Part shown: piece after piece, positions 950 through 61,150 of the stretch
How the letters are laid out: each line of letters begins with the position of its first letter
How positions within the stretch are numbered: position 1 is the stretch's first letter
Assembly: GCA_945891505.1 (NCBI GenBank)
Contig: CAMDDL010000006.1
Coordinates: 1 to 64,000 of the forward strand
DNA from: Maricaulis salignorans
GTDB lineage: Bacteria; Pseudomonadota; Alphaproteobacteria; Caulobacterales; Aquidulcibacteraceae
Direction of reading: 5' to 3'
Length of the DNA stretch: 64,000 bases
Translations under genes and position numbers: made by a program
The notes under the pieces: model-generated
What the model was told of the DNA's origin: nothing
Database searches by the model: none
The model's input: the letters and a program-made list of their open reading frames with translations, nothing else

Positions 950-2563
950 ATGACCCAAGCCACGCCTCCAGCCAAGCCTGTCCCCAACACCCAGCGCGGT
1001 TTCCTAGCTTGGGTCGAGCGGGTCGGAAACCTTTTGCCCGATCCTGTCATGATCTTTGTCTGGTTGATCGGCTTCCTGATGGTGCTGTCGGTTATTGGGT
1101 CGGCGCTGGGTTGGTCGGCATCCTTGCCTTTCTCGGGCGACAAGGCCCCGAGCGGCGGGGTCGTGAAAGATGGGGTCCTAACATTTCAGGCCACAAGTTT
1201 GTTCACCGAGGACAATCTTAAGAAGATAATCGTCGATATGCCACGCACACTCACCGGTTTTGCGCCGCTTGGCTTGATCTTAGTCGTGATGTTGGGGGCT
1301 TCGGTGGCAGAACGGGCTGGCCTGTTCAGCGCCTTGATCCGCAACAGCTTGCGCGATCTGCCTCGCGCCTTTTTGACCCCTGTTGTCTGTTTGATCGGCA
1401 TGATGAGCCACCATGCTTCAGACGCTGGCTATGTGGTTTTCATTCCTCTGTGCGGTTTGGTTTATGCAGCCGCAGGCCGTCACCCGCTGGTGGGGATTGC
1501 TGCGGCCTTTGCGGCCGTCTCGGGCGGCTTTGCCGGCAATATCACGCCGGGCCAGCTTGATGTGCTTTTGTTTGGCTTCACCCAAGAAGCGGCCCGCATC
1601 ATTGACCCGACTTGGACCATGAACCCCTTGGGCAATTGGTGGTTTATTCTGGCGATCGTCGGCCTGTTCACCCCCATCATCTGGTTCATCACCGACCGCA
1701 TGTTGGAACCGCGCTTGGGCACATGGACGGGCCAGCCTGATGATGATCTCCAAGCTGAATTGACAAAATCTGTTGTCACACCCGATGAAAAGCGGGGCCT
1801 TGCTTGGGCTGGCCTCGCGGCGCTTGTGGTGATCGCAGTTTTTGCTGCTTTGTCTTTGTGGCCCGGTTTCACCCCGCTGATTGATGAAAGCCAGAAGGGC
1901 ACCGCGCAGTTGCAACCCTTTTATCAGGGCCTGATTGCAGCTTTCACCCTTTTGTTCTTAGCCGGTGGCATCGCCTTTGGCGTGTCGGTTAAATCGGTCC
2001 GCTCCTCGTCAGACGTGATTTCCATGATGACTGAGGGCGTTCGATCACTCGCCCCCTATGTCGTCTTTGCCTTCTTTGCTGCGCATTTCATCGCCATGTT
2101 CAATTGGTCGAACTTAGGCCCAATCGCCGCAATCAATGGGGCGGCAGCTTTGAAAGAACTCAGCCTGCCAGCGCCGTTCCTGCTGGTCTGCGTGCAAGCC
2201 TTCTCGTCCTTCTTAGACCTGTTCATTGGTTCGGCTTCGGCTAAATGGAGTGCGATGGCACCCGTCGTCGTGCCGATGTTCATGCTGCTCGGTATCTCGC
2301 CAGAGATGACGACGGCGGCTTACCGGATGGGTGACAGCTATACCAATATTGCAACACCCTTGATGTCCTATTTCCCGCTCGTCCTCGCTTTCTGTCGCCG
2401 TTGGGACAAGAATGTCGGCGTTGGCACGCTTTTGTCCATGATGTTGCCTTTTGCGTTAGCGTTCATGGTCGCAGGCATGGCGATGACAGCGGCTTGGGTC
2501 TATTTCGACTGGCCGTTGGGACCGGGCGCTTCGGTCCACTACAGCCTGCCCGGTGCCAAGTAG
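950..2563 (+). CDS. AbgT-family transporter
   Basis: A polytopic inner-membrane protein of about 537 residues with many hydrophobic segments. It matches the AbgT (p-aminobenzoyl-glutamate transporter, AbgT/MtrF) family: N-terminal ERVGNLLPDP, a hairpin region with MSHHASDAGYVVFIPL, and a C-terminal stretch with SASAKWSAMAPVVVPMF and GDSYTNIATPLMSYFP. Family members export p-aminobenzoate or antifolates, or take up p-aminobenzoyl-glutamate; which applies here cannot be told. The frame is open to 887; ATGs at 944 and 950 are both possible, and 950 is chosen because GAG lies six bases upstream. It is monocistronic, divergent from thiE and convergent with astB (8 bp between stops). Confidence 0.85.
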   Translation: MTQATPPAKPVPNTQRGFLAWVERVGNLLPDPVMIFVWLIGFLMVLSVIGSALGWSASLPFSGDKAPSGGVVKDGVLTFQATSLFTEDNLKKIIVDMPRTLTGFAPLGLILVVMLGASVAERAGLFSALIRNSLRDLPRAFLTPVVCLIGMMSHHASDAGYVVFIPLCGLVYAAAGRHPLVGIAAAFAAVSGGFAGNITPGQLDVLLFGFTQEAARIIDPTWTMNPLGNWWFILAIVGLFTPIIWFITDRMLEPRLGTWTGQPDDDLQAELTKSVVTPDEKRGLAWAGLAALVVIAVFAALSLWPGFTPLIDESQKGTAQLQPFYQGLIAAFTLLFLAGGIAFGVSVKSVRSSSDVISMMTEGVRSLAPYVVFAFFAAHFIAMFNWSNLGPIAAINGAAALKELSLPAPFLLVCVQAFSSFLDLFIGSASAKWSAMAPVVVPMFMLLGISPEMTTAAYRMGDSYTNIATPLMSYFPLVLAFCRRWDKNVGVGTLLSMMLPFALAFMVAGMAMTAAWVYFDWPLGPGASVHYSLPGAK

Positions 2564-2571
2564 CGCCGATA

Positions 2572-3930
2572 TCAGGCGCGCTGAAATGGATAGAAGTCTG
2601 ACCCAAGTCTCATGATCTGGGTCAGCTCATCCAAGGCCGTCCGCCCTTCATTCAGCAGGCTGGGATCGGCCAAATCATCGGGTCCTAAGGTCTCACGATA
2701 ATGGCGGTTCACCCAAGCGACCAAGTCCTCATAGAGCGCAGCATCAAGCACAGCCCGTGCACTGACCGCCTGTTGCTTGGCGCCATCCAGCACCACCCGC
2801 AGCCGCAAGCAGGCCGGCCCGCCGCCATTGCGCATGGATTGGCGGACGTCGACGAATTGTACCCGACCAATCGGTCCATTGCTGGCCACCAGCTTTTCCA
2901 AATAGGCATTGGTCGCCGCATTCTCGCGACACTCCTCCGGCGCGATTAGGACCAAACGGTCTTCGCCCGGCATGGACAGCAACTGGGTATTGAACAAATA
3001 GGATTTGATCGCGTCCGCCAAGGGCACGTCCGCCTCGGGCACTTCGACGATAGCCACTTCCATCAAGCCATCGCAGGCGCGCTTGATCGCTTCATAGGCC
3101 CCCAGCCGATCTTCGAATGCGTGCTCGTGACAGAAGAGGACCTGAAGGCTTGCTACGGCCACCACGTCATTATGGAAGGCCCCAGCCTCAATGGCTTTCC
3201 GGCTTTGCTGCAGATGCAGGACACACTCAGCCGCAAGGCCATGGCGACGGGCGATGGCTTCACCGGTTTGTAACGTCTGGCGGGCTGGAAAGCGGGTTTC
3301 CTGTTGACCAAAGCCATTGCGGCCCCAGACAAAAATCTCCACGCCCGCTTCGCCATGGCTGCCACACAGGCGCATGTGATTGGCCGCTCCCTCATCGGCA
3401 AACAAGGGCTGATAGGGCAGCGCCTTGTGAACGGCAAAGTGGTTTGTATCAGCAAAGATCGCCCGCAAGCTGCGCTCGGTTTGGCTGGCCTCCAACGCGC
3501 GGTGCGGCATGGTCAGAAGATTAGCTGGGCTGAAATGCAGGCGGCCATCGCTACAGTCCGCTGACGGCGATACAGTAGCGGCATTGGCCGCCCACATCTG
3601 CGCGGAGGAGGAGACATTACGCACGAGCGCGGGGTCTGCCTTCCAAGCCTGGGCTAGAATTTCTGCGTCTGACCCCGAAAAGCCAATCGCTCTCAGGGTG
3701 GGTAGGTGTGGGCGCTCATGCGGTGGCAATAGCCCTTGAACCAAGCCCGCATCGGCAAGCCTCTTGGCTTTCGCTAGGCCCTGAAGCGCACCTTCCTTAG
3801 GGCGCGAGACCGCAGTCGCATTGGCAGCAGAGGCCAAATTGCCAGCGCTGAGCCCGCCATAATTGTGGGTTAAGCCAACCAAACCATCGAAATTTGCTTC
3901 AAACGCCAAGACCAACCCCTTTGTTGTCAT
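2572..3930 (-). CDS. astB: N-succinylarginine dihydrolase
   Basis: Hydrolyses N2-succinylarginine to succinylornithine, CO2 and ammonia, the second step of the arginine succinyltransferase (AST) pathway. The N-terminus (EANFDGLVGLTHNYGGLS) is diagnostic. The catalytic triad is visible as Glu in DEGAANH, His in GAFHNDVV and Cys in GGGPACLRLR. Length (about 452 residues) fits the family. A GTG at 3936 is also in frame; the ATG at 3930 is chosen. The other ast genes (astA, astC, astD, astE) are absent around it, which is unusual because they normally form one operon. Confidence 0.92.
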   Translation of the reverse strand: MTTKGLVLAFEANFDGLVGLTHNYGGLSAGNLASAANATAVSRPKEGALQGLAKAKRLADAGLVQGLLPPHERPHLPTLRAIGFSGSDAEILAQAWKADPALVRNVSSSAQMWAANAATVSPSADCSDGRLHFSPANLLTMPHRALEASQTERSLRAIFADTNHFAVHKALPYQPLFADEGAANHMRLCGSHGEAGVEIFVWGRNGFGQQETRFPARQTLQTGEAIARRHGLAAECVLHLQQSRKAIEAGAFHNDVVAVASLQVLFCHEHAFEDRLGAYEAIKRACDGLMEVAIVEVPEADVPLADAIKSYLFNTQLLSMPGEDRLVLIAPEECRENAATNAYLEKLVASNGPIGRVQFVDVRQSMRNGGGPACLRLRVVLDGAKQQAVSARAVLDAALYEDLVAWVNRHYRETLGPDDLADPSLLNEGRTALDELTQIMRLGSDFYPFQRA

Positions 3931-12047: not shown

Positions 12048-13171
12048 TAGGCTGCCTCAAACACCGTGACAGTCATGGTTTGATTGTGCAGGTTACACGT
12101 GCCTTGGAAGCCATTGGGCGAGATCTCACCGTAGGAATAGAAGCCGGCATGGGCGATCCCGCCCAGCGCATCGACGACGGCGCGGACTTCTTCCGTGGCC
12201 CGCTGGCCCAGAAGCAAGCGCCGACCGATACAGGAAACCAGCATAGCAAAGCCGTGATTGTCGCCACCTGAAGCAGCAAGGCCAGCTTTGCCAGCGCCTT
12301 CAATTAGGCCATTGGTTTCACCTACCATCAATTGCGCGGTCCACCCTTCGGGCATGTCGCCAGCGAAGGTCATTGCCCCGGTTGCCTCGTCAATACCTAA
12401 AATTGTCCGCACCACGGTGTCGGCGGGGTTGGCTGGATTGCTGACTTGTAAGGGGTAGAACAGCGCAGAGCCTGGCAGCTTTTCGGCCTCATCGCCGAGA
12501 TAGCGCTTGTAAAGCTCAAGGGCAGATTTGTTGTCGAGTTGATAGAGCGTATTGCCTTCGGACTTGGTGATCTTCCGCATCGGGCCAAACACTTCCCAGC
12601 CACCAAACGAGCCTGTGCGCAGTCGTAAGCCAGTTCCGAAGAAGGCCACGGCCACCACTTTTCCAGGGCTCATTGGGCCAGAACACCCAACCAAGGTTTC
12701 GCCGAACCGGTCGCCATCGCCAGCTAGACCGCCATTGATGGAGGCATGGGTGCCTAATACGCTGCGGAAGCCTTCGACCAGAGCGGATCCATTTACGCGT
12801 GCACCGTCGGAAACGATAAAGACGCCTGCCAATTCGTCGCCGTCAAATTGGTTTGCCAGTGCTTCCCCGATGCCAAAGCTTTCGCCTGCGGTGTCAATAT
12901 CGGCCTCGACTACTTGGACGCTGACATTGTTAAAACCAAGCAGGGCAGCAAAGCCATCGCCAACATAGGCCTGACCATTGGCAATCTCGCCGCCAGTCGT
13001 ACATCCAATGACCTTGGCGTTTGGCAGCAGGGCCTTTAGCGTTTCAAAGGCATCGGTGGAGCGGGCCACTTCCGGATCCAAGAAGGTGAAAACGACTTCG
13101 TAGGAATCTGGTGCGAAGTCCGCCGGGAGTTCCCAGCAGCCTTGATGAAAATGCAAAACATTATGGCGCAT
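12047..13171 (-). CDS. FIST-domain (FIST_N/FIST_C) sensory protein
   Basis: A 374-residue protein with FIST_N (about 25-220; GCTTGGEIANG, LAGDGDRF) and FIST_C (about 220-365; NKSALELYKRYLG, GFYSYGEISP) domains. FIST proteins are thought to bind small ligands such as amino acids and feed signal-transduction proteins. The start is placed at the ATG at 13171, which has AAGGGG six bases upstream; the frame is open to 13264 but the extension has no RBS. Translation is coupled to the hybrid kinase by a one-base overlap, which supports a sensor-kinase pair. Confidence 0.88.
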   Translation of the reverse strand: MRHNVLHFHQGCWELPADFAPDSYEVVFTFLDPEVARSTDAFETLKALLPNAKVIGCTTGGEIANGQAYVGDGFAALLGFNNVSVQVVEADIDTAGESFGIGEALANQFDGDELAGVFIVSDGARVNGSALVEGFRSVLGTHASINGGLAGDGDRFGETLVGCSGPMSPGKVVAVAFFGTGLRLRTGSFGGWEVFGPMRKITKSEGNTLYQLDNKSALELYKRYLGDEAEKLPGSALFYPLQVSNPANPADTVVRTILGIDEATGAMTFAGDMPEGWTAQLMVGETNGLIEGAGKAGLAASGGDNHGFAMLVSCIGRRLLLGQRATEEVRAVVDALGGIAHAGFYSYGEISPNGFQGTCNLHNQTMTVTVFEAA

Positions 13172-13267
13172 TTGGAGCCCCTTACACACTAAGAACTCCA
13201 GATAACACCAAAGTGATTTAAATTTCGTTGAAGGCAGCTCTTTATGATAAAAAGGCCACCCCAAAAC

Positions 13268-14380
13268 CTAATAAGCGTTGAGCTTGGCCCACCGGTCTCG
13301 ATGGAAGCCACTTGATCCGTAGACGGTTTCTAATACCCGGGCACGTTTCAAGTAAAAGCCGCTGTCATGCGCATCGGTCATGCCGATCCCGCCATGCATT
13401 TGGATCGTTTCATTGGTGACCAATTGCAAGGTATCGCCGGCTCGCGCCTTGGCGAGGCTGACAGCTTCGCCAACACCTTTGCCCCGTTCAATTGCATCAA
13501 TGGCCGCAACCACGCAGGAGCGCGTCAACTCAATCTCCACCAACATGGCCGCTGCGCGGTGCTGCAACGCTTGGAAGGACCCGATCAATTGACCAAATTG
13601 GGTGCGGGTTTTCAGGTAGTCGTGCGTCATGTCGAACGTGGCACCGATGAGGCCCATCATTTCGCAGCACAGCCCAATCCGGCCGTAGTCGAGAATGAGG
13701 TCCAACGTGGAGTCATCCAATGCCTTGCCGCCTAAGTAAGCGTCATCTCCGATAGCCACAGCGTCGAACGCCACATCCGCTAAATCGCGCGCATCGACGC
13801 CCGCTAGCGCATGGCGCGTTACACCTGGCGCATCACTTGCGACCAAGAAGGCTCCAAGACCTGCATCGGTCTTAGCGATGACGATTAAGATCTGTGCATG
13901 GGCTCCATCGGGAACAAAGCGCTTCTTGCCCGAAAGGCTCCAGCCGTCGGCAGTCTTCGTAGCTTTCGCGTCGATTTTGTGTGGGGCATGGTGTGCCCCT
14001 TCATCCAAAGCCAAGGCAAAGCTTAGGCTCCCGTCCGCGATTTTTGGCAGTAACGCGTCCTGCTGCGCGGAATTGCCCTGCAGCTTCAAGATGGATGCGG
14101 CCATCAGACCGGTTTGGAACAAGGGCGAGACGCCCAAGGTGCGCGCTTGGGCTTCCAGCACGAGGCCCATGGCGCGCAGACCCATGTCTGAGCCGCCATG
14201 TTGCTCGCCTATCAGGGCACCGGCAAAGCCCATGGCCCCAATCTCGCCCCACAGGGAAGGGTCGAGCGTTTCCTTGGCATCGCGCAATTTGCGGAAGCTG
14301 GCCACAGGCGCATTGTCGGAAAAGAACCCGTCAGCGGCGTCCTTCAGGAGGGTTTGATCTTCATTGAGTGAAAATGCCAT
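13268..14380 (-). CDS. Acyl-CoA dehydrogenase, smaller partner subunit
   Basis: A 370-residue acyl-CoA dehydrogenase-like flavoprotein: N-terminal helical domain, a central region lacking the usual strong FAD/substrate motifs, and a C-terminal helical domain (RTQFGQLIGSFQALQHRAA, IQMHGGIGMTDAHDSGFYLKRA). The position that normally carries the Glu general base in an EG motif reads ETVYGSSG here. It follows the other dehydrogenase gene by 9 bp. Pairs like this resemble FadE-type alpha2-beta2 heterotetramers, where only one subunit is fully catalytic; that model is inference. Confidence 0.85.
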   Translation of the reverse strand: MAFSLNEDQTLLKDAADGFFSDNAPVASFRKLRDAKETLDPSLWGEIGAMGFAGALIGEQHGGSDMGLRAMGLVLEAQARTLGVSPLFQTGLMAASILKLQGNSAQQDALLPKIADGSLSFALALDEGAHHAPHKIDAKATKTADGWSLSGKKRFVPDGAHAQILIVIAKTDAGLGAFLVASDAPGVTRHALAGVDARDLADVAFDAVAIGDDAYLGGKALDDSTLDLILDYGRIGLCCEMMGLIGATFDMTHDYLKTRTQFGQLIGSFQALQHRAAAMLVEIELTRSCVVAAIDAIERGKGVGEAVSLAKARAGDTLQLVTNETIQMHGGIGMTDAHDSGFYLKRARVLETVYGSSGFHRDRWAKLNAY

Positions 14381-14389
14381 CGGGCCCTC

Positions 14390-15580
14390 CTATTGATGGT
14401 CGCGCAAGCCAAGCACGCGCTTGGCCACGATATTCAGATTGACTTCCGAAGTGCCACCTTCGATCGAATTGGCTTTAGCCCGCAGCCAATCGCGCGTGAC
14501 TTTCAGGGCCTCGGGGCGATAGCCTTCGCCTTCCCAGCCAAGACCCTCCATGCCCAAGGCTTCTACCAAAAGCTCTGTCTTGTCTTGGTTGAGTTTGGCA
14601 GCCGCGATCTTCAGGACAGACGCATAGTGCGAGACTTCCGCCCCAGCTTTTGCTTCTTCTTGACCGCGGCGCATGGTTAAGTGGAAAGCCCGCTCATACA
14701 TGCGTTGTTTCGTGATGCGCGAACGCAGGTCGCTATTGGCCAGCTTGCCATTCTCAAGACCAATCGATTCTTTCGCAGCATCGACCAGATCAAGGCCTGC
14801 CCCGCTACCAAAGCCAGAAGCCGAAATATTGGTGCGCTCAAACTGCAAGATGCGCTTGGCAACATCCCAGCCCTTGTTCTTGGGGCCCAGCATTTGGGAT
14901 GCGGGAACGCGTACATTGGTCAGGAAGGTCTCGCAGAAGGGCGACGCGCCGGAAATCAGTTTGATCGGACGCGCTTCTACGCCGGGGGTCTTCATGTCGA
15001 ACAGAAGAACCGAGATACCTTCATGCTTGGGGGCATTTGGTTCGGTTCGCACCAAGCACAGCATCCAGTCGGCGTGGTTTGCATAAGACGTCCATACCTT
15101 TTGCCCATCAACCACATAATGATCGCCATCCAGAACGGCGCGCGTCTGTAGGCCCGCCAAGTCCGAGCCAGCTCCTGGCTCTGAATAGCCTTGGCACCAC
15201 CACGTCCGGCCATGCACCATATCGGGCAAATAGGTTTGCTTTTGCTCTTCGGTGCCAAACTCCAAGATCACGGGTCCAAACATCCAGATCCCGAAAGAGA
15301 GCAGGGCTGGGCGGGCGTTGATGCGGCGCAATTCATCTTGCAGCACGCGGTCCTCTTCCCCGGTTAGGCCGCCGCCGCCATAGGCCTTTGGCCATTTGGG
15401 TGCGGTCCAGCCTTTTGAAGCCATGGCTTCGAGCCAAGCTTTCGCGTCTGGGTTTTTGAAGGTTGCATTGCGGCCACCCCAGACTGTTTCGCCTTCTGGC
15501 ATGGGGGTTCGCATGGAGGCGGGGCAATTAGCTTCAAGCCAAGCCCGCGTTTCTTGTCGAAAAGTCTCAATGTCGGTCAT
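14390..15580 (-). CDS. Acyl-CoA dehydrogenase, catalytic subunit
   Basis: A 396-residue acyl-CoA dehydrogenase. Visible motifs: WWCQGYSEPGAGSDLAGL (FAD and substrate contacts), VVDGQKVWTSYA, and the C-terminal SIEGGTSEVNLNI containing the probable catalytic Glu. The ATG at 15580 follows GGAGG closely, so the five-residue extension to 15595 is not used. With the downstream gene it probably oxidises a branched, cyclic or otherwise unusual acyl-CoA; the substrate is not deducible. Confidence 0.88.
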   Translation of the reverse strand: MTDIETFRQETRAWLEANCPASMRTPMPEGETVWGGRNATFKNPDAKAWLEAMASKGWTAPKWPKAYGGGGLTGEEDRVLQDELRRINARPALLSFGIWMFGPVILEFGTEEQKQTYLPDMVHGRTWWCQGYSEPGAGSDLAGLQTRAVLDGDHYVVDGQKVWTSYANHADWMLCLVRTEPNAPKHEGISVLLFDMKTPGVEARPIKLISGASPFCETFLTNVRVPASQMLGPKNKGWDVAKRILQFERTNISASGFGSGAGLDLVDAAKESIGLENGKLANSDLRSRITKQRMYERAFHLTMRRGQEEAKAGAEVSHYASVLKIAAAKLNQDKTELLVEALGMEGLGWEGEGYRPEALKVTRDWLRAKANSIEGGTSEVNLNIVAKRVLGLRDHQ

Positions 15581-15690
15581 GATGCCTCCGCTCACCTTGA
15601 TGGGCCGCCTCTAATGGACGTTGCATTTTAATTAGAACGCGCGGAAGGCGCTGACTAGCCCCCAAGCTGGGCTGATCTTGGTCAAAGCTT

Positions 15691-15909
15691 TTAGCGCATT
15701 GGGGCAGAGGTTTTGCCCGTCTGAATTCCCGCCAGATTGACAGCATGGATCAGCATAAAAAGCGCCACCACAGCACAAATGATCGACAGCGTTGTCCAAG
15801 GGATCATCCGAACCTTGCCGAATTCAGCAGGCCTTGAGGCCCGCCAAGAGGAAAAACCAAACCCACAAAGACCGATTGTGAGAGCGATTAAAGTTGCTGG
15901 CCAATCCAA
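15691..15909 (-). CDS. Small two-helix membrane protein
   Basis: A 72-residue protein with two hydrophobic helices (about 4-21 and 41-60) joined by a basic loop. It overlaps the 3' end of the broken glycosyltransferase gene by 22 bp. No family is recognised and there is no strong ribosome-binding site, but the clean two-helix topology argues for a real gene. Confidence 0.5.
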   Translation of the reverse strand: MDWPATLIALTIGLCGFGFSSWRASRPAEFGKVRMIPWTTLSIICAVVALFMLIHAVNLAGIQTGKTSAPMR

Positions 15910-17386
15910 GTCTGTGGCTCACTCATTGCGTGTTGACCCTCGGCGGTGGCGAGCCTACGCGGCCGTGCCTCTACACCCTGCTTGGTTTTGTCCCAGATCG
16001 ACGGCGAAAGATAGATGCGCCAAATCGCACGAAACAGTGCCGGCACCTGGCAGGCTTGATAGAGCGGCAAGACAAAGCAGGCGATCCAAAATGTGTCTCG
16101 CCCATCGCGGAGGACCGCTACCATCCCAACAATCGCTTGGCTTAAGGCCATGGATAGTACCCAGAGCACTACTTGGTCGGACGCTCCAGCAATCGTCTGG
16201 CCAATTGCCAGAAGCGCCGATACAAATAGGATTGCCCCATTCAACGGGCCGGTTGTCAGACCCAGAAGAAAGGCGAGCAGGCCAAAGCAGCCAAGCTGTA
16301 GGGTCAGTCGTCTCGGTGTGCGAAAATGGACACTGACTGTTTGAATATGGCCCTGGATCCAACGACCGCGCTGGCGGACCCAGCCCGTAAAAGTGGGGCA
16401 CCCTCTTCATAGGTGGGGCTTTGGATCAAGTTGGCAATCAGGCCTAGCCGGGCAAGTCTTGCGCCCAGATCTGCGTCTTCGGTGACATTGAATGGGTCCC
16501 ACCCACCGGCCGCTCGTAAATGGGTGATATCAAAATGATTGGAGGTTCCACCAAGAGGCAAGAAGCGGGAAATGCGCACCAGTCCCGGCAAGATTAGGCG
16601 GAACCAGATCGCATAGTCGAGTGCAAACTGACGACTGATCCAACTTTCCCGCTCATTCCAAATCACCAGCGGGGCTTGAACGACAGCAAGCGTGGCGGGT
16701 CCATTTCGAAAGGCCATCCAAGCCTCGCGTAATTGACCTGAAGCTGGGAGGTCCTCCCCATCATAGACCGTCAGATAGCGCCCTCGAGAAAAGGGCAGGG
16801 CCGTTTGAAGGGCCTTCGGTTTGGTGCGCGGCCCACCAGTGGGAATGGCAATGATCCGGAAGCGATGGCTATGTCGTCGTAAATCTAGGGCTGCCAATGT
16901 CTCGCTGTCATCGGCTTCACAGGCAAAGACGAGGTCAATCTTCTCCTTGGGCCAATCCAGTTTGTCTAACGCATTCAGCAACGACCCAACCGAGCCCGCC
17001 TCTTGATAGAGCGCGATCAATATAGTCCAGACGGGTTCTGACCCGTTAATGTCCGCTTGCGGACAAGCAGAAACGCGCGGTTCAGGCAGATAACAAGTCC
17101 AAAGCCGGAAGACGTTTAGGGACAGCGCCAATGTCATTACCGCCCAAGCTAGGGCTTCTGTATCCACCAACAGAAATAGGGCAAAAACCGACCAAAAGCA
17201 GGTCAGTAAGATCAAGGTAGCAAACATCCGCCCAGCAGGCTTGGCTGCCGAAAGCCTTGGGTCTAGGTGGGCGAGTCGACACAACGCTTGGGCCATAGCA
17301 GCTGCGACAGCGTCGGCAGGCGGGTCTTTGTCCTCAAGGCAGAGCATGCCCGCCGCCGTAGAGACGATATCTGGAATTTCCTTCAT
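15888..17386 (-). pseudogene. Family 2 glycosyltransferase, frameshifted
   Basis: Frame 1 (17386 to 16304) encodes two N-terminal transmembrane helices and a GT-A domain: TILIALYQEAGSV, ACEADD, YDGEDLP and FNVTEDADLGARL, ending in SPTYEEGAP. The expected continuation sits in another frame: WVRQRGRWIQGHIQT (the Q/RxxRW motif of processive GT2 enzymes), then three or four transmembrane helices (GPLNGAILFVSALLA, TFWIACFVLPLY) and a tail ending at 15888. Restoring one base near 16384 joins them into a 499-residue protein of normal layout. It is either a recent pseudogene or a base error. Start ATG at 17386 follows AAGG. Confidence 0.8.
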
Positions 17387-19672: not shown

Positions 19673-20431
19673 ATGTCCACACCGAATCCATCCGTGCCCC
19701 GCTTAGAACCGCTCGACATTTCCGTTGTGGTGCCTGTCCATAATGAGAGTGGGGCTGTGGCGAGTCTGGTGCAGGAAATCGCGGCGGCCCTGGATGGTTG
19801 GGCCTATGAGATGATTTTTGTCGATGATGCGTCCAAGGACGATACCCATGCCAAGCTGGTGGCGCTAAAGGCTACCTATCCCGCGCTGCGCGTCCTCGCC
19901 AACCGCAATAATGCTGGGCAGAGCCGCGCGATCATGAATGGCGTCTTGGCTGCGCGGGCACCGGTGATCGGTACGCTGGATGGCGACGGCCAGAATGATC
20001 CAGCAGACCTTCCAGCCCTTCTGCAGCGGCTAAATCGCCCCGATGCGCCACAAGGTTTAGGCTTTGTCGGTGGTCGTCGGGTGAAGCGGCAAGATAGCCA
20101 AGCCAAGAAATTAGCGTCTCGTTTGGCCAACAATGTACGCCAGGCTTTGCTGCGCGATGGGGCGGATGATTCTGGTTGCGGCATCAAAGTGGTTCGGCGC
20201 GACCTGTTCCTGCGTCTGCCCTATTTCGATCACATGCATCGCTACATGCCAGCCTTGGTGCAGCGCGAGGGGGCCTTGGCAGAGTTCGCCGTCGTCAATC
20301 ATCGCCACCGCTCAACCGGTGCGTCCAAATACACCAATCTAGGCCGTCTGCTGGCCGCTTTGACCGATTTGGGCGGCGTCATTTGGCTCAGGACACGTCG
20401 CCGCGACTTCGGCCATGTGGACGAAACGTGA
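19673..20431 (+). CDS. Family 2 glycosyltransferase (dolichyl-phosphate mannosyltransferase-like)
   Basis: A 252-residue GT-A glycosyltransferase: ISVVVPVHNESGAV, MIFVDDASKDDT, NAGQSRAIMNG and LDGDGQNDPADLP containing the metal-binding DxD. It lacks C-terminal membrane anchors, like polyprenyl-phosphate sugar synthases of the DPM/ArnC group. The membrane protein gene 53 bp downstream probably belongs to the same unit and could act as partner. The sugar is unknown. Confidence 0.85.
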   Translation: MSTPNPSVPRLEPLDISVVVPVHNESGAVASLVQEIAAALDGWAYEMIFVDDASKDDTHAKLVALKATYPALRVLANRNNAGQSRAIMNGVLAARAPVIGTLDGDGQNDPADLPALLQRLNRPDAPQGLGFVGGRRVKRQDSQAKKLASRLANNVRQALLRDGADDSGCGIKVVRRDLFLRLPYFDHMHRYMPALVQREGALAEFAVVNHRHRSTGASKYTNLGRLLAALTDLGGVIWLRTRRRDFGHVDET

Positions 20432-46467: not shown

Positions 46468-47577
46468 ATGAGCGGACAGATCCTCCATTCGGGTCCACAA
46501 ATCGTCCTTGGACTAGAAACAAGTTGCGATGAAACGGCTGCGGCATTGGTTGTCTTGCAGGATGGTCGTGCGCGGGTTTTGTCCAGCATCATCGCCAGTC
46601 AGATCGACGCGCACGCCCCCTATGGCGGTGTGGTTCCTGAAATTGCAGCCCGCGCCCATGTCGACGTGATTGACCATGTGATTCTGCAGGCCATGAGCAA
46701 GGCTGGGCTGGGCTTCGAAGATCTCACCGGCGTGGCAGCAACGGCAGGGCCCGGTCTGATCGGTGGGGTGATGGTGGGCCTGCTGACAGGCAAGGCGATC
46801 GCTCTGGCCCGCGGTCTGCCACTGGTCGCAGTCAATCATTTAGAGGGACATGCGCTATCGCCGCGCCTCGAAACCGATGTGCCCTTTCCCTATTTGTTGC
46901 TGCTGGTGTCGGGTGGCCATTGCCAACTTTTACGCGTGGCAGGCCTAGATGCGTGTGCGCGTTTGGGCTCCACAATTGATGATGCCGTGGGCGAAGCGTT
47001 TGATAAGACAGCCAAAGTTCTGGGTTTGGGCTATCCCGGTGGGCCAGCGGTAGAGCGTGCGGCGCGGACGGGCGATCCCAAAAAGTTTGATCTGCCGAGG
47101 CCCCTAAAGGGCCGGCCCGGATGTGACTTCTCCTTTGCCGGCCTCAAAACCGCTGTTGCACGCGAAGCCGCCGCATTCGGCTCGTTGAGCGAGCAGGACA
47201 CTGCTGATCTATGTGCGAGTTTTCAGGCCGCTGTTGGCGATGTCCTTGTGGATCGCACCCGTCAAGCAATGGCGGCGATGGTGCTGCCTGTGGGGCAATC
47301 CGGTCGTTTTGTTCTCGCAGGTGGTGTTGCGGCAAATCTAGTTTTGCGCAGCAGGCTTGAAACCTTGTGCGAAGAGTTTGGCTGGTCCTTTTTTGCCCCG
47401 GCTTTAGCCTATTGTGGCGACAACGCCGCGATGATTGCCTTGGCGGGGGCAGAGCGTTTGGCACAAGGCATCTCAGACGATTTGGATGCGCCCGCCCGAC
47501 CGCGTTGGCCATTGGATGCGGAAGCCGCCCGCGCTGCGCCGATGTATAAGACGGGGCGTAAAGGGGCTAAGGCTTAA
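46468..47577 (+). CDS. tsaD: tRNA N6-threonylcarbamoyladenosine transferase TsaD
   Basis: A 369-residue ASKHA-fold enzyme that, with TsaB and TsaE, makes t6A37 in ANN-decoding tRNAs. Motifs: [15 protein letters not shown], metal-binding [50 protein letters not shown] and [13 protein letters not shown] precedes the ATG. Its stop overlaps the convergent glycosyltransferase stop. In many relatives gpsA follows directly; here an island intervenes. Confidence 0.95.
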
Positions 47578-48551
47578 GCCTTCGGCGCCGCTAGCTGCTT
47601 CTTGTGTGCGGCTGCGCCGTAAAGGCCAACACGGAATGGGCCAAACCAGAGAACTTTGCCCAAGCCCCGCCACATCTTGTCATAGGCCCAAGCCAAACGG
47701 TCGTGCCGCGCGATCCATAAGAGCGCGACCAAAGGTGCCAAGGCCAAAGCTTGGGCGACCCCCTTGATCATCGAAATGACCATCCGGACATAGTCCCTGT
47801 CGGCCCGATTATACCATTGGCCGGTGGTATTATGACCAAAGGCAAAAGCGCGCTTGGTCAAATAGGCCCACGTCGCGCGGCTTGGCGGCACGTCTTCATA
47901 GACCCAAGCATCCTGTGCCCAGCCGAAGGTGCCACCGCTGGCTACCACTTCTCGCCACAAAATATCGTCCTCGCCGCCCGTTTCATTGGCAGCAGGATTA
48001 AAGGGCTCTGCTTTGGTCAAAACGGTGGCGCGCTTCAACAGGCTGTTGCCACAGCCGTAGGGGATATCAATCAAGCGTGTTGGCCCGTCGAGGCGTCGGG
48101 AAAAGAAGTTTTGAAAATAAGCGTGGGGCACGGTGTGATTCGCAGGTAAGCGGGCCTCAATCGGGCCGAAAACCACGTCGGCACCTGTTTCTAGTTGCGC
48201 GCGGATCAAGTTCGCCAGCCAATTTGGCTTGGCCACTTCATCATCATCCAAGAAGGCAACAAACTTCCCACGGGCTAAACCAACCGCTTTATTGCGCGCA
48301 TTGGCGACACCGGCTGCGGGCTCCACGGCATAGGTGAAGGGCGTTTGACCGGCTTCCTGTGCCAATTGCTCGGCAACGGATTTGCAGGATTGATTGGCAT
48401 CATTGTCGACCAGAATGATCTCCAGCGATGGTGCATGCGTCTGCGCCAAAACAGAGCGCACAGCCGCTAAGGCACCGTCCGCGCGGTGAAAAGTTGGTAT
48501 GATCACGCTGATGGTGAGCGCTTCTGAATCAGAATTGGTCACAACAAACAT
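47574..48551 (-). CDS. Family 2 glycosyltransferase
   Basis: A 325-residue enzyme with a GT-A domain ([50 protein letters not shown]) and a C-terminal hydrophobic helix (about 268-285) that may anchor it to the membrane. It resembles GT2 enzymes of surface polysaccharide pathways. It is a single gene at the tsaD side of the accessory island, downstream of the small-ORF terminator. Confidence 0.82.
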
Positions 48552-56979: not shown

Positions 56980-58584
56980 ATGACACACAATGATTTGATC
57001 GCCCGTGGCCAATCGGCGGCTTCCGCCTCCATATCAACCCTTTTGCTCGATCTGGCGCGTCACAAACGCTTGAACTTTCAGGCTGACGGATTGCATTTCG
57101 ATTTTTCCCGCGCCCTTCTCAGCCAAGCTGATTTGGATGCCCTCTTGCTCCATGCCCAAGAAATTAGACTAGAACAAGCACGATCCGATCTTTTCGCCGG
57201 CAAAGCAATCAACGTGACCGAAGGTCGCGCTGTCATGCACATGGCCCTTCGTCAGCCTGACCGAGATTTTATGGCCAAAGGTGAAGCGATCAGCGCGGCC
57301 GTGCGTGTTGGCCGGGCTGCGGCAACGGCCTTTGCTAAAGGCGTTCGCGATGGATCGATAGCGGCCGCGGATGGTCGCCCATTCAAGTCGATCGTCCATA
57401 TCGGGATCGGCGGATCAGACCTTGGGCCGCGCCTTGTTTATGAAGCTTTGGCCCCAACAGTTGGCAGCGACATCATTTTGCGCTTTGCCGCCAATATTGA
57501 GCCCGGAGAATTAGCCGCGGCGCTCGTTGGCCTCGATCCCCGTGAGACTTTGATCCTGTGCGTGTCGAAGACCTTCACGACGCTAGAGACTTTGGAAAAT
57601 CTCAAAGCTGCCCGCACTTGGTTACAGGCCGCCATCGGTCCAGATGATAGCGCCCATCTAGTTGCGATCAGTGCCGCGCCTGAAAAAACCAAAGCAGCCG
57701 GCTTTAGGTCCGACCGCGTGTTTGACTTTAAAGAATGGGTAGGCGGACGGTTTTCGCTCTGGTCGGCGGTGGGCCTGTCGTGTGAAATCGCGTTGGGGCC
57801 TGAAGTTGTCGCAGAAATGCACGCGGGTGCCGCCGCGATGGACAATCTGTTCGAGGTCTTGCCGCTCGCAGAAAATCCCGTTGTTGTCGCCAGCCTGATC
57901 GGTTGGTGGAACCGCACCTGCCTGCAGTTCAAGAGCCGCGCCGTTATTCCCTATGCCAAGCGTCTGCGTCTCTTGCCGCAATTCCTGCAGCAATTGGAGA
58001 TGGAGTCGAATGGTAAGTCCGTTAATTTGGATGGAAATGGCGTTGAAACCTCCGGTCCAGTTGTCTGGGGTGCAGAAGGCACAAACGCCCAGCATGCCTT
58101 CTTCCAGCATCTGCACCAGAGCCCGGATGTGACCCCGGTTGAGTTTGTAGCCATCGCACAAGATGACGAAAATGCGCTGGTTCGCACCCGCATGACCTTA
58201 GCCAATGTCTTAGCCCAAGCTGAGGCTCTCACCCATGGCAAAAGCTTGGCTTCGGTAATCGAAACGATGCAAGCCGCAGGTGCGAGCGAGGCGCAGATTG
58301 CCGCCATCGCGCCACACCGGGTTTTCAAAGGCAATCGCCCGTCCAGCTTTGTTCTGATGGACTGCTTAAGCCCGACCAATTTCGGGGCCTATCTGGCCTT
58401 CTGTGAGCACCGCACCTTTGTTGAAGGCAAGCTATGGGGCGTCAATTCCTTTGACCAATGGGGCGTTGAGCTGGGCAAAGTGATCGCCAGCGAGATCGAC
58501 CTTGATCTGCAACATGGCCCAAGCGATCACCGTGACCCATCCAGTGTGGCGATGATTGAGCGGATCCGTGCGTTGCGGGCCTAG
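56980..58584 (+). CDS. pgi: Glucose-6-phosphate isomerase
   Basis: Interconverts glucose-6-phosphate and fructose-6-phosphate. A 534-residue protein: VHIGIGGSDLGPRLVYEAL, VSKTFTTLETLEN, GGRFSLWSAVGL, catalytic region WGAEGTNAQHAFFQ and family signature GKLWGVNSFDQWGVELGK. Its stop overlaps the convergent deacetylase stop (58581-58584). Confidence 0.95.
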   Translation: MTHNDLIARGQSAASASISTLLLDLARHKRLNFQADGLHFDFSRALLSQADLDALLLHAQEIRLEQARSDLFAGKAINVTEGRAVMHMALRQPDRDFMAKGEAISAAVRVGRAAATAFAKGVRDGSIAAADGRPFKSIVHIGIGGSDLGPRLVYEALAPTVGSDIILRFAANIEPGELAAALVGLDPRETLILCVSKTFTTLETLENLKAARTWLQAAIGPDDSAHLVAISAAPEKTKAAGFRSDRVFDFKEWVGGRFSLWSAVGLSCEIALGPEVVAEMHAGAAAMDNLFEVLPLAENPVVVASLIGWWNRTCLQFKSRAVIPYAKRLRLLPQFLQQLEMESNGKSVNLDGNGVETSGPVVWGAEGTNAQHAFFQHLHQSPDVTPVEFVAIAQDDENALVRTRMTLANVLAQAEALTHGKSLASVIETMQAAGASEAQIAAIAPHRVFKGNRPSSFVLMDCLSPTNFGAYLAFCEHRTFVEGKLWGVNSFDQWGVELGKVIASEIDLDLQHGPSDHRDPSSVAMIERIRALRA

Positions 58585-59327
58585 CCGAACATGACTTTCG
58601 CAGCGGCAGCCTTTACCGGCAGCGTCTCAATTCCCGCGTCCTTAAGGGTTGTGATCACATCCTCAAGATTTTGCGGCGTGCAGCCATAGTCTGATGGGTC
58701 CGGCCCTACATCGTGGGTGAAGAAGATGATCCACGCGTTGCGCTCTTTGGCCTCGGCCACAAGATCGCGGACTTGGCCGATATCGTGCTGACGGCGCTCT
58801 ATCCCAATCGCGCGCAGCTCAGCGAAATCTATTCGGCCTGTGTTCAGCCCCCGATAAACACCCCTGCAGGTAAAGAATTGGCGCGCATAGTAGGCTTTGG
58901 CCGCCAAACTCACCGCACCATAGGGATAGGCAAAGCTGGTCATCATCACGTCACCCAGCGTGTCGCGTATAAAGTTCGCATTGGCCTGCCGATCTTGATC
59001 GCGCGCGGTGTCCGATAGCTTGGTGACAAAGGGGTGGGCAAAGGTGTGGCAGGCAATCTCATGGCCCGCTTGGTGCAGGGCCAAAAGGTCATGGGCTTGA
59101 TGCTGGGCGCGGTCTTCAAAGGTCTCCCCGGTGTGGCCACCACACACGTAAAAGGTACCTTGGATTTCAGCACGCTCTAGAATGGGTGCACCGACGCGGG
59201 CAGCCGAAAACGGAATGTCGTCAAAGCTAATCGAGGCAAGCGCTTGGGTCAGGCGCGATTGAATTGGGTTTAAGGGGATGGCGCGGGTTATGGCCCCTTC
59301 GATGCGCGTCAGAAGTCCAGTTGCCAT
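58581..59327 (-). CDS. Polysaccharide deacetylase-family protein
   Basis: A 248-residue NodB-fold protein without a signal peptide: SFDDIP holding the Asp pair, HEIACHTFAHP with the two metal-binding His, FAYPYG, and a C-terminal FFTHDVG. It is 2 bp after the FkbH-like gene and so in the same operon, which suggests a shared role in making or modifying a sugar-based product. The lack of an export signal points to a cytoplasmic deacetylation step. Confidence 0.83.
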   Translation of the reverse strand: MATGLLTRIEGAITRAIPLNPIQSRLTQALASISFDDIPFSAARVGAPILERAEIQGTFYVCGGHTGETFEDRAQHQAHDLLALHQAGHEIACHTFAHPFVTKLSDTARDQDRQANANFIRDTLGDVMMTSFAYPYGAVSLAAKAYYARQFFTCRGVYRGLNTGRIDFAELRAIGIERRQHDIGQVRDLVAEAKERNAWIIFFTHDVGPDPSDYGCTPQNLEDVITTLKDAGIETLPVKAAAAKVMFG

Positions 59328-59329
59328 AG

Positions 59330-61150
59330 CTACACAACCTCCGTGTCAAGGGCAGGAATGGGTTCATCAGCGGCGTGTACGACGCGCACAATGTCGCTAC
59401 CCCCAAAGCCAGAAGGTAGGCTGCGCCGCAATTGGCCGTGGCTGTCATCGGTCGAGTCCAGCGTAAACCCTAAGCCCAAAAATAGGTCCAGCGCCGGGCC
59501 ATTGCGTGCCGCCTTCTGATAAGAAATAGCGAGGTCAGGAGCCCCTTCCGTCTCATATCGCGCTGCCAGCCAAGCAAAGAAAGCCGCTTCCACGCGCTTG
59601 CGTTGCACGCGGCAGCTCATGAAGAAGTCGCGGATGTGTCCAGTCTGCGGGGTCCCATAAGCAAAGCCGATCAGGCCGTAATCGCCAAAGCGATCGGCAC
59701 AGCGTAGCGTCCAAGCCTCAGCACCGTTCGAGTCTGACAGCATGGCGGCGACGTCGTCGCGACTATAGCGGGTTGCGGCAATATTGAGTTGGTTGGTCCG
59801 CTGCGACAATTCATAGACCCGCTCAGCATCCTCTGGCGACAAGCGGGCGATGCTTAAGACGAGATCGCAACCGCGCAGGAATTGGTCCATATCGCCAGCA
59901 GCAGACTCGGCCGCCAGAGCGCGCGCAGCCTCCACTGCATAAAGCGCGCGCCGGCCACGGCTTTCGGGCGTCACAGGCACGTCAAATTGTGGGCGCTCTA
60001 GCAATTTAAGCGCTTCGGTATCAGGCAGCACAGTCACGGACGGATGGGCTTCACCAACTTCCCCGCGTTCAAACGGCTGATCGTCTATGAATACAAAGGA
60101 GTCGATCCCGAGATTGAGCGTCTCTGCAATATGAGACAAGGCCGCACTTTTCGGGCCCCAGCTGATTTGCGGGGCGAGCATGAAATTGAGGAGCCCGTGA
60201 TGGGCGAGGGCAGCCACGGCCTCGTCATGATTATTCTTGCTGGCGACCGATTGCAGAATGCCACGCGCGTCTAGCGCTTCGATCATCTCGCGGATACCGG
60301 GCTTTACGATCACGCCCTCTGGCCCGTCCTCGAGCAAGATGCCGTCCCAGATCGTATGGTCGAGGTCCCAGACGACGACCTTAGCTTTGGTGGCTGGCAT
60401 GTTTGGCGCGGATGGAAGTGTCACCGCTTGTGTCCAAGTCACAAAGTCACACAGGCCCAAAAGGACCTCAAGACCCTCTGCCTCCCCGACCGGCTCAATC
60501 TGGACCAGATAGTCTTGGGCGAGGTCGATGGTCCGCGCAATGTCTGCGACCGGGATTGAGATCCTTGTCCAGTCTGCGTTCAATGAGAACTGGCTTTGGA
60601 ACAGGGCCGGATTGGTTTTGTCGACGGGGACAAATGTAAGCGTGAAAGTTATTGCCTTGGCAGAAAGCGCTGCACCTTCGATCAGAAATGCATCGAACGA
60701 GCCATGCACGCCTCGACTCGTCTCGATATGGCCTGCAGTGCGTTGACGGGCTTCCCGACGCGCCAAAAAGGCCAGACCTAAACCCAGGGCGGGCTGTGCG
60801 TATTGTTCTTCGGCGGCGGCTTCTTGTTTACTCATCGGACGGACGGGTCCTCGCCCCTCCAGCTTACCCCAGCGGCGAAAGGCGATCCGGGTCAATGGGG
60901 TCTTGTCAGAAGTCCCGCTGTCGACGGTTTCGATGCCCCTCGTAAAGCGGCGGCAATGGCCATCTGGGCGCGGGGTGTAGAAACTGCAGGCGGTATAACA
61001 CGTGGGGGCGGCGCATTCAGAACAATGTTCGCTCCACACGATCATGCTGCGTTTTTGGATGAGATCGTAGGTGGCGGCGCGTGCATCGGCCATGGCTTCA
61101 GGCAGCCGTATCTGGGCCTGCGCATGATCCAACGCCACCGTCTCTTTCAT
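59330..61150 (-). CDS. FkbH-like HAD-IIIC protein with N-terminal Cys cluster
   Basis: A 606-residue protein with an unusual layout. Residues 43-66 hold C-x2-C-x4-C-x3-C (HCSECAAPTCYTACSFY) and a further Cys, suited to binding an Fe-S cluster or zinc. Residues ~90-245 are beta-rich and may be a sandwich or carbohydrate-binding-like module. A HAD-IIIC domain (from VVWDLDHTIWDG, Asp262 and Asp264) and a GNAT-like C-terminal domain follow, as in FkbH, which loads glyceryl from 1,3-bisphosphoglycerate onto carrier proteins. ATG at 61150 has AAAGGGG seven bases upstream. No carrier protein or polyketide gene is nearby. Confidence 0.82.
   Translation of the reverse strand: MKETVALDHAQAQIRLPEAMADARAATYDLIQKRSMIVWSEHCSECAAPTCYTACSFYTPRPDGHCRRFTRGIETVDSGTSDKTPLTRIAFRRWGKLEGRGPVRPMSKQEAAAEEQYAQPALGLGLAFLARREARQRTAGHIETSRGVHGSFDAFLIEGAALSAKAITFTLTFVPVDKTNPALFQSQFSLNADWTRISIPVADIARTIDLAQDYLVQIEPVGEAEGLEVLLGLCDFVTWTQAVTLPSAPNMPATKAKVVVWDLDHTIWDGILLEDGPEGVIVKPGIREMIEALDARGILQSVASKNNHDEAVAALAHHGLLNFMLAPQISWGPKSAALSHIAETLNLGIDSFVFIDDQPFERGEVGEAHPSVTVLPDTEALKLLERPQFDVPVTPESRGRRALYAVEAARALAAESAAGDMDQFLRGCDLVLSIARLSPEDAERVYELSQRTNQLNIAATRYSRDDVAAMLSDSNGAEAWTLRCADRFGDYGLIGFAYGTPQTGHIRDFFMSCRVQRKRVEAAFFAWLAARYETEGAPDLAISYQKAARNGPALDLFLGLGFTLDSTDDSHGQLRRSLPSGFGGSDIVRVVHAADEPIPALDTEVV

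Follow-up and report, generated by a model that had tools for sequence, protein, structure and literature searches.

Proteins of the FkbH family (TIGR01686), among them FkbH and Mad7/Mad14 of tetromadurin, combine a HAD-IIIC domain with a GNAT domain. In the holdfast system of Caulobacter and Hirschia, oligosaccharide is deacetylated by HfsH (NF050820), and a second protein, HfsK, is a FemX-like GNAT acyltransferase; passages of PMC5362036 state that the exact role of HfsK remains unclear and that it might acylate amines exposed by HfsH, while passages of PMC8449245 report that deletion of HfsH or HfsK weakens cohesion of the Caulobacter holdfast, HfsK being dispensable in Hirschia. Here we analyse a gene pair in positions 1 to 64,000 of contig CAMDDL010000006.1 (assembly GCA_945891505.1, Maricaulis salignorans), the 64,000-nucleotide stretch hereafter called the window. 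The pair encodes an FkbH-like protein with an N-terminal cysteine cluster (Cys-FkbH) and a CE4/NodB polysaccharide deacetylase. Our reading, which we regard as evenly poised between right and wrong, is that the two proteins act as a deacetylate-then-reacylate module on an amino sugar of an exported polysaccharide, here probably the holdfast.

The genes and the parts of Cys-FkbH are located in the window as follows:

59330 to 61150, minus strand: Cys-FkbH gene, 606 amino acids, with an N-terminal Cys/beta domain, a HAD-IIIC domain and a GNAT domain
60410 to 61150, minus strand: N-terminal domain, residues 1-247, with the Cys cluster and a predicted jelly roll like those of carbohydrate-binding modules (AlphaFold model, fold searches)
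60953 to 61027, minus strand: Cys cluster, residues 42-66, with H42, C43, C46, C51, C55 and C66 invariant in alignment A3
59969 to 60388, minus strand: HAD-IIIC domain, approximately residues 255-394, with D262, D264, T266, K334, D356 and D357 invariant in alignment A3
59411 to 59863, minus strand: GNAT-fold domain, approximately residues 430-580, with S512-C513-R514 invariant in alignment A3
58581 to 59327, minus strand: CE4/NodB deacetylase gene, HfsH-like, 248 amino acids (Pfam/NCBI profile matches, partner alignment)

A sequence-only reading of this DNA had described an FkbH-like protein followed 2 bp later by a deacetylase, and both points hold. Cys-FkbH scored 247.7 bits against TIGR01686 (cut-off 146.65), the FkbH domain covering approximately residues 256-564, and the deacetylase scored 66.3 bits against PF01522 (cut-off 23.1); both open reading frames (ORFs) lie on the minus strand, with 2 bp between the Cys-FkbH stop and the deacetylase ATG. 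Cys-FkbH starts at the ATG at 61150, where the initial M-K-E-T is common to close homologues; the mechanical ORF list places the start two codons before this conserved ATG. The genome is that of a relative of Aquidulcibacter, isolates of which are among the nearest loci that carry a name, at 81-86% protein identity; the place of Aquidulcibacter within Caulobacterales is discussed in passages of PMC12700997.

Further loci were sought with two peptide patterns, one of which spans the first Cys pair and therefore biases selection. Eighty loci were found, and exclusion of one whose match runs across a broken frame (L040) left 79, spanning about a dozen phyla. Alignment A3 consists of the window plus 74 of the 79 loci, L110 and L114 (FkbH broken across frames) and L038, L039 and L041 (near copies) being left out; alignment A4 also omits L050, which has an over-long start. 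TIGR01686 matches all 75 members of A3 at an E-value of 0.001. As controls, 35 FkbH proteins without the Cys domain were used, 20 of them with longer flanks.

The sequence-only reading had reported an N-terminal four-Cys cluster; a cluster is indeed present, but it contains five invariant cysteines and an invariant histidine, in the pattern H-C-x2-C-x4-C-x3-C-x10-C. Conservation of the cysteines among homologues had been named beforehand as a point to check, and H42, C43, E45, C46, P49, C51, C55, C66 and W94 proved invariant in all 75 aligned sequences. The search pattern that spans the first Cys pair requires S or T between the two cysteines, a position occupied by V, N, I or L in 13 of the 79 loci, so that these were found only via the other pattern; all 13 retain the five cysteines. 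Profile searches yielded seven further members (L031, L032, L033 and L181-L184), each with five cysteines and each fused to FkbH; at an eighth place (L034) the frame spans 186 residues and contains a stop. The invariance in A3, together with the members found by profile, rules out that the cluster is a chance feature. The motif was absent from all 35 FkbH proteins of relatives (29 from a class search, 6 from a family search), and the Cys domain thus marks a subfamily, an uncommon one, present in 15 of 398 genomes of the order and in 7 of 398 genomes drawn from the phylum.

By sequence, the N-terminal domain of the window protein gave no Pfam match at an E-value of 1, and a search of the PDB with the N-terminal profile returned a single match that was not significant (E = 2.3). 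Because fold searches with the full-length model were dominated by matches to the HAD and GNAT domains, the N-terminal part was modelled and searched separately. The AlphaFold model of residues 1-248 alone (predicted template modelling score 0.87; mean predicted local distance difference test score, pLDDT, 86.8) supports the beta-rich region that had been described; the full-length model is uncertain in the Cys loop, where residues 48-51 have a pLDDT below 50. The best structural neighbour was the carbohydrate-binding module (CBM) family CBM11 (Z = 9.1, root-mean-square deviation 3.7, 141 aligned residues), followed by CBM30 (Z = 8.9) and CBM4 (Z = 8.6), with further CBM families ranking below; the best Foldseek match was likewise CBM11 (E = 1.9e-4). 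Glycan-binding jelly rolls made up most of the best 50 structural matches; jelly rolls of phages, toxins and capsids also appear in the match lists, the fold being common, and a Z of about 9 just modestly exceeds the usual level for models without a clear match. We describe the domain as a predicted CBM-like jelly roll, which would share its fold with CBM11, CBM30 and CBM4, but differs from them in its 8-11% identity, in the presence of the Cys loop and in giving no sequence match.

Partners of Cys-FkbH were counted by six-frame hidden Markov model (HMM) search, as greedy gene calls overlooked some partners masked by antisense ORFs. At 61 of the 79 loci the Cys-FkbH gene has a deacetylase gene no more than 150 bp away (NodB 55, YdjC 5, PIG-L 1), and at 70 within 2 kb, the added nine being NodB (7), YdjC (1) and PIG-L (1); these counts are not independent of the NodB, YdjC and PIG-L profiles, which were built from partners at the same loci. 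Since distances were measured from where the HMM match ends, adjacency comes out slightly too low for L110 and L114, in which FkbH is broken. Three loci have a deacetylase at 2-10 kb and six have none found, some contigs ending near the Cys-FkbH gene. Pfam confirmed the partner family where it was applied: NodB for the window and for L078, L085, L107 and L108, the last four being divergent, YdjC for L104, and PIG-L for L106 and L110. Among the 20 control loci, none has a deacetylase closer than 1 kb, the nearest lying at 1297 bp; four have a NodB match in the fetched flank and none a YdjC or PIG-L match. The controls rule out that the deacetylase is an accidental neighbour, and its conservation, the other point named for checking, is borne out by the counts. 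As the partner can come from three families (the non-NodB partners at eight loci being YdjC, PF04794, at six and PIG-L, PF02585, at two), deacetylation, and not one particular protein, appears to be the common need.

Partner identity is clustered on a quick FkbH tree: it changes 9 times, compared with 15.6 times on average after shuffling. Those YdjC and PIG-L partners that the tree includes fall in one group of 11 loci, and five of the six partnerless loci in another group of 8. Distance matrices of FkbH and NodB correlate strongly (r = 0.90 over the Mantel set of 51 pairs, with 0 of 1000 permutations as high), as is expected of linked genes inherited together, which indicates that the pair travels as a unit. 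This includes passage into Pararobbsia and Nitrosomonas, genera of the Betaproteobacteria whose pairs sit among Alphaproteobacteria in the FkbH tree. Across 42 aligned deacetylase rows, the window included, D36, D37, H94, H98 and P135 are kept in all 42 and H205 in 41, residues that correspond to the catalytic motifs of CE4 enzymes.

Two individual loci are recorded here in their own right. At L088 of Sphingomonas parva, a gene for an AMP-binding enzyme (positions 1295-3316) lies directly upstream of a Cys-FkbH gene without an adjacent deacetylase. The genome of Hyphomonadaceae bacterium UKL13-1 (G004; loci L007, L018 and L040) has the deacetylase, with Cys-FkbH split over two frames; the split is either a recent loss or an assembly error.

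In its catalytic part, Cys-FkbH resembles the remainder of its family: D262, D264, K334, D356 and D357 are common to all 35 control FkbH proteins, and T266 and S512-C513-R514 to 34 each. With the canonical catalytic residues kept, Cys-FkbH very probably retains FkbH chemistry, and C513 is perhaps the acyl-carrying residue. The subfamily differs from most controls at D294, R401, E447, Q450, R451 and K518, positions at which a changed acceptor might show. Cys-FkbH thus has the HAD-IIIC and GNAT layout and the catalytic residues of the FkbH family, but adds to them the N-terminal Cys/carbohydrate-binding-like domain, the constant deacetylase partner and the subfamily residues. In a plasmid collection 50 records matched, none with at least 80% query coverage, and the matches listed span the HAD/GNAT part only.

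A glycosyltransferase or Wz/Hfs-type gene lies within 7 kb at 36 of the 79 loci versus 3 of the 20 controls, a comparison that favours the former, as the 17 queries (glycosyltransferases, Wzx, Wzy, Wzz, Wza and related proteins) came partly from the same loci. The module is embedded in glycan clusters in many Acidobacteria and in Nitrospira, whereas in Caulobacterales it is mostly isolated. At L061 (Pseudaquidulcibacter) the next gene after the pair (positions 12579-15932) encodes an 1118-amino-acid fusion of GH18, deacetylase and GT2 domains, which hints at an N-acetylglucosamine polymer. That no glycan cluster adjoins the pair in the window had been stated from the sequence and was confirmed, the glycan queries matching only two isolated GT2 genes, approximately 10 kb and 38 kb from the pair:

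47574 to 48551, minus strand: GT2 glycosyltransferase gene, isolated, near haem biosynthesis genes and the gene for TsaD
19673 to 20431, plus strand: GT2 glycosyltransferase gene, isolated

Either gene could act in the pathway of the pair. Such isolation is peculiar to the window genome and related genomes.

Elsewhere in the genome to which the window belongs (G000), contig C16 carries genes whose products match HfsE (501.6 bits), HfsF (381.1 bits) and HfsG (292.1 bits), all below the respective cut-offs of 750, 700 and 500. Next to them are genes of export, chain-length and kinase-like type, arranged as would be expected of hfsD-A-B-C, names assigned from position and general family. An hfsH-type gene stands beside hfsG in G031 and G073, and none is found at the same locus in G000, G004 and G017. 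The deacetylase beside Cys-FkbH is the sole HfsH homologue in G000 and, the pair lying on contig C6, it is outside the core hfs locus. It matches HfsH NF050820 over nearly its full length at 176.2 bits; it shares with HfsH the CE4 family, but falls below the equivalog cut-off of 400 bits and groups apart. The best HfsH homologue also adjoins Cys-FkbH in G001, G002, G003, G004, G005, G006, G007, G017, G018, G040, G180 and G195, as it does in G000.

HfsE was found in 16 of the 17 genomes searched; the exception, G008, a genome of the same genus (2.5 Mb, rated 100% complete), is without Cys-FkbH, HfsE and HfsH together. In a quick and provisional tree with several long branches, the FkbH-linked deacetylases group apart from the HfsH proteins of hfs loci (SH-like approximate likelihood ratio test 94), which suggests replacement rather than relocation; with the hfs-locus HfsH proteins forming a group of their own, a relocated core hfsH is not favoured. 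We consider the holdfast the most likely polymer served by the pair in the window organism, a freshwater bacterium.

The suggestion of a distinct sugar- or glycerate-modifying pair is supported in that both the cysteines and the deacetylase neighbour are conserved; the chemistry we infer would run as follows. The deacetylase would act on a glycan precursor in the cytoplasm, probably a lipid-linked one, and strip the N-acetyl group from one of its sugars, a step proposed because of its family and the invariant CE4 residues. Cys-FkbH would hold the same glycan via its N-terminal domain, in which the five cysteines and the histidine would fold a metal site, with structural zinc likelier than an iron-sulphur (Fe-S) centre. 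The HAD and GNAT domains would then make a glyceryl thioester from a three-carbon acyl donor in phosphorylated form, for which 1,3-bisphosphoglycerate is the probable candidate, as conservation of all the canonical FkbH catalytic residues suggests, and the glyceryl group, perhaps carried on the invariant Cys513, would pass to the freed amine. In an Aquidulcibacter-type genome, the pair would perform the HfsH role for which the hfs locus has no gene. A wider proposal, which we offer tentatively and with more doubt than confidence, is that such pairs are widespread and so far undescribed modules for N-acyl editing of glycans, in which a deacetylase from any of the three families works with a glycan-binding FkbH bearing a metal site, and in which a glycolytic acyl phosphate donates glycerate to the freed amine directly, with neither coenzyme A nor an acyl carrier protein (ACP) taking part, so that holdfasts and biofilm polysaccharides come to contain N-glyceryl amino sugars.

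Several observations weigh against the deacetylate-then-reacylate reading. No glycan gene adjoins the pair in the window. The sister clade to which those five partnerless loci belong is mostly without a deacetylase nearby, and three later loci of the same type, L186-L188, are again partnerless; the deacetylase is thus not obligatory in cis. At L189, also a later locus, a NodB gene lies convergent to Cys-FkbH. Genomes G019 and G020 keep an HfsH-type deacetylase without Cys-FkbH; their deacetylases (L200 and L199, respectively) fall inside the FkbH-linked group, and the two genomes may have lost FkbH. Conversely, G128 has Cys-FkbH but no HfsH homologue at 1e-15. The window genome also encodes three clear FemAB/GNAT proteins (PF13480) of the HfsK class; as these coexist with Cys-FkbH, a replacement of HfsK by FkbH is not favoured. 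Finally, the control loci are equally without ACP genes, so that the scan for them cannot separate direct transfer from ACP loading, and the absence of an ACP was dropped as evidence for direct transfer.

Among the alternatives, we consider it unlikely, though the least so, that Cys-FkbH follows canonical chemistry and loads glycerate onto an ACP encoded elsewhere, with a separate transferase acylating the glycan and the deacetylase linked only via the common polymer. In its favour, all the canonical catalytic residues are kept; but a strict ACP motif scan found none within 6 kb at the 79 loci, the matches of a relaxed scan at 7 of the 79 were unconvincing by eye, with a match at just 1 of the 20 controls as well, and with an ACP as acceptor a glycan-binding-like domain of its own would be superfluous. 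Somewhat less probable again is O-acylation by Cys-FkbH of a hydroxyl in the repeat unit that is deacetylated, the two decorations being made in parallel and not one after the other on a single amine. GNAT-fold domains take varied acceptors, and partner and glycan context are the same genomic evidence for either acceptor; recruitment of three deacetylase families beside one enzyme, however, fits a freed amine better.

That the substrate is some other carrier of amino sugars (lipid A, a peptidoglycan precursor or a glycolipid) and not an exported polysaccharide would agree with the pair standing apart from glycan genes in the window, as in most members from Caulobacterales, and with the PIG-L partners at two loci; we hold it to be improbable in view of the glycosyltransferase or Wz-type genes near so many loci and of the joint loss with HfsE in G008. 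Most improbable of all, in our judgement, is that the cluster is an Fe-S centre, making the enzyme redox-controlled or redox-active, instead of structural zinc. The C-x2-C-x4-C-x3-C portion resembles ferredoxin-type spacing, and weak Fer4_11 matches occur in 5 of 74 members; but even the best of these (E = 0.054) is not significant, and equally weak matches to an unrelated Cys-rich family occur in 8 of 74.

The deacetylate-then-reacylate reading shares with HfsK, as passages of PMC5362036 present it, the two-step idea of deacetylation and acylation; HfsK is a tandem GNAT protein of the FemX type, whereas Cys-FkbH joins HAD to GNAT and coexists with the PF13480 proteins. A literature search, with most subscription journals and preprints outside its scope, returned no paper joining FkbH, a deacetylase and an exopolysaccharide, or HAD-IIIC and a polysaccharide deacetylase. 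New relative to the HfsH/HfsK idea are the FkbH-type partner, the Cys/CBM-like domain, the wide spread and the exchange of deacetylase families. The pair would embody that idea in a compact and widespread form, with a specific proposal for the donor. Were this reading right, the adhesiveness of a surface polysaccharide would be tied to glycolytic flux, FkbH enzymes would gain a role outside carrier-protein loading, and a name would be given to an uncharacterised Cys-rich domain, predicted to be glycan-binding-like, that is found in about a dozen phyla.

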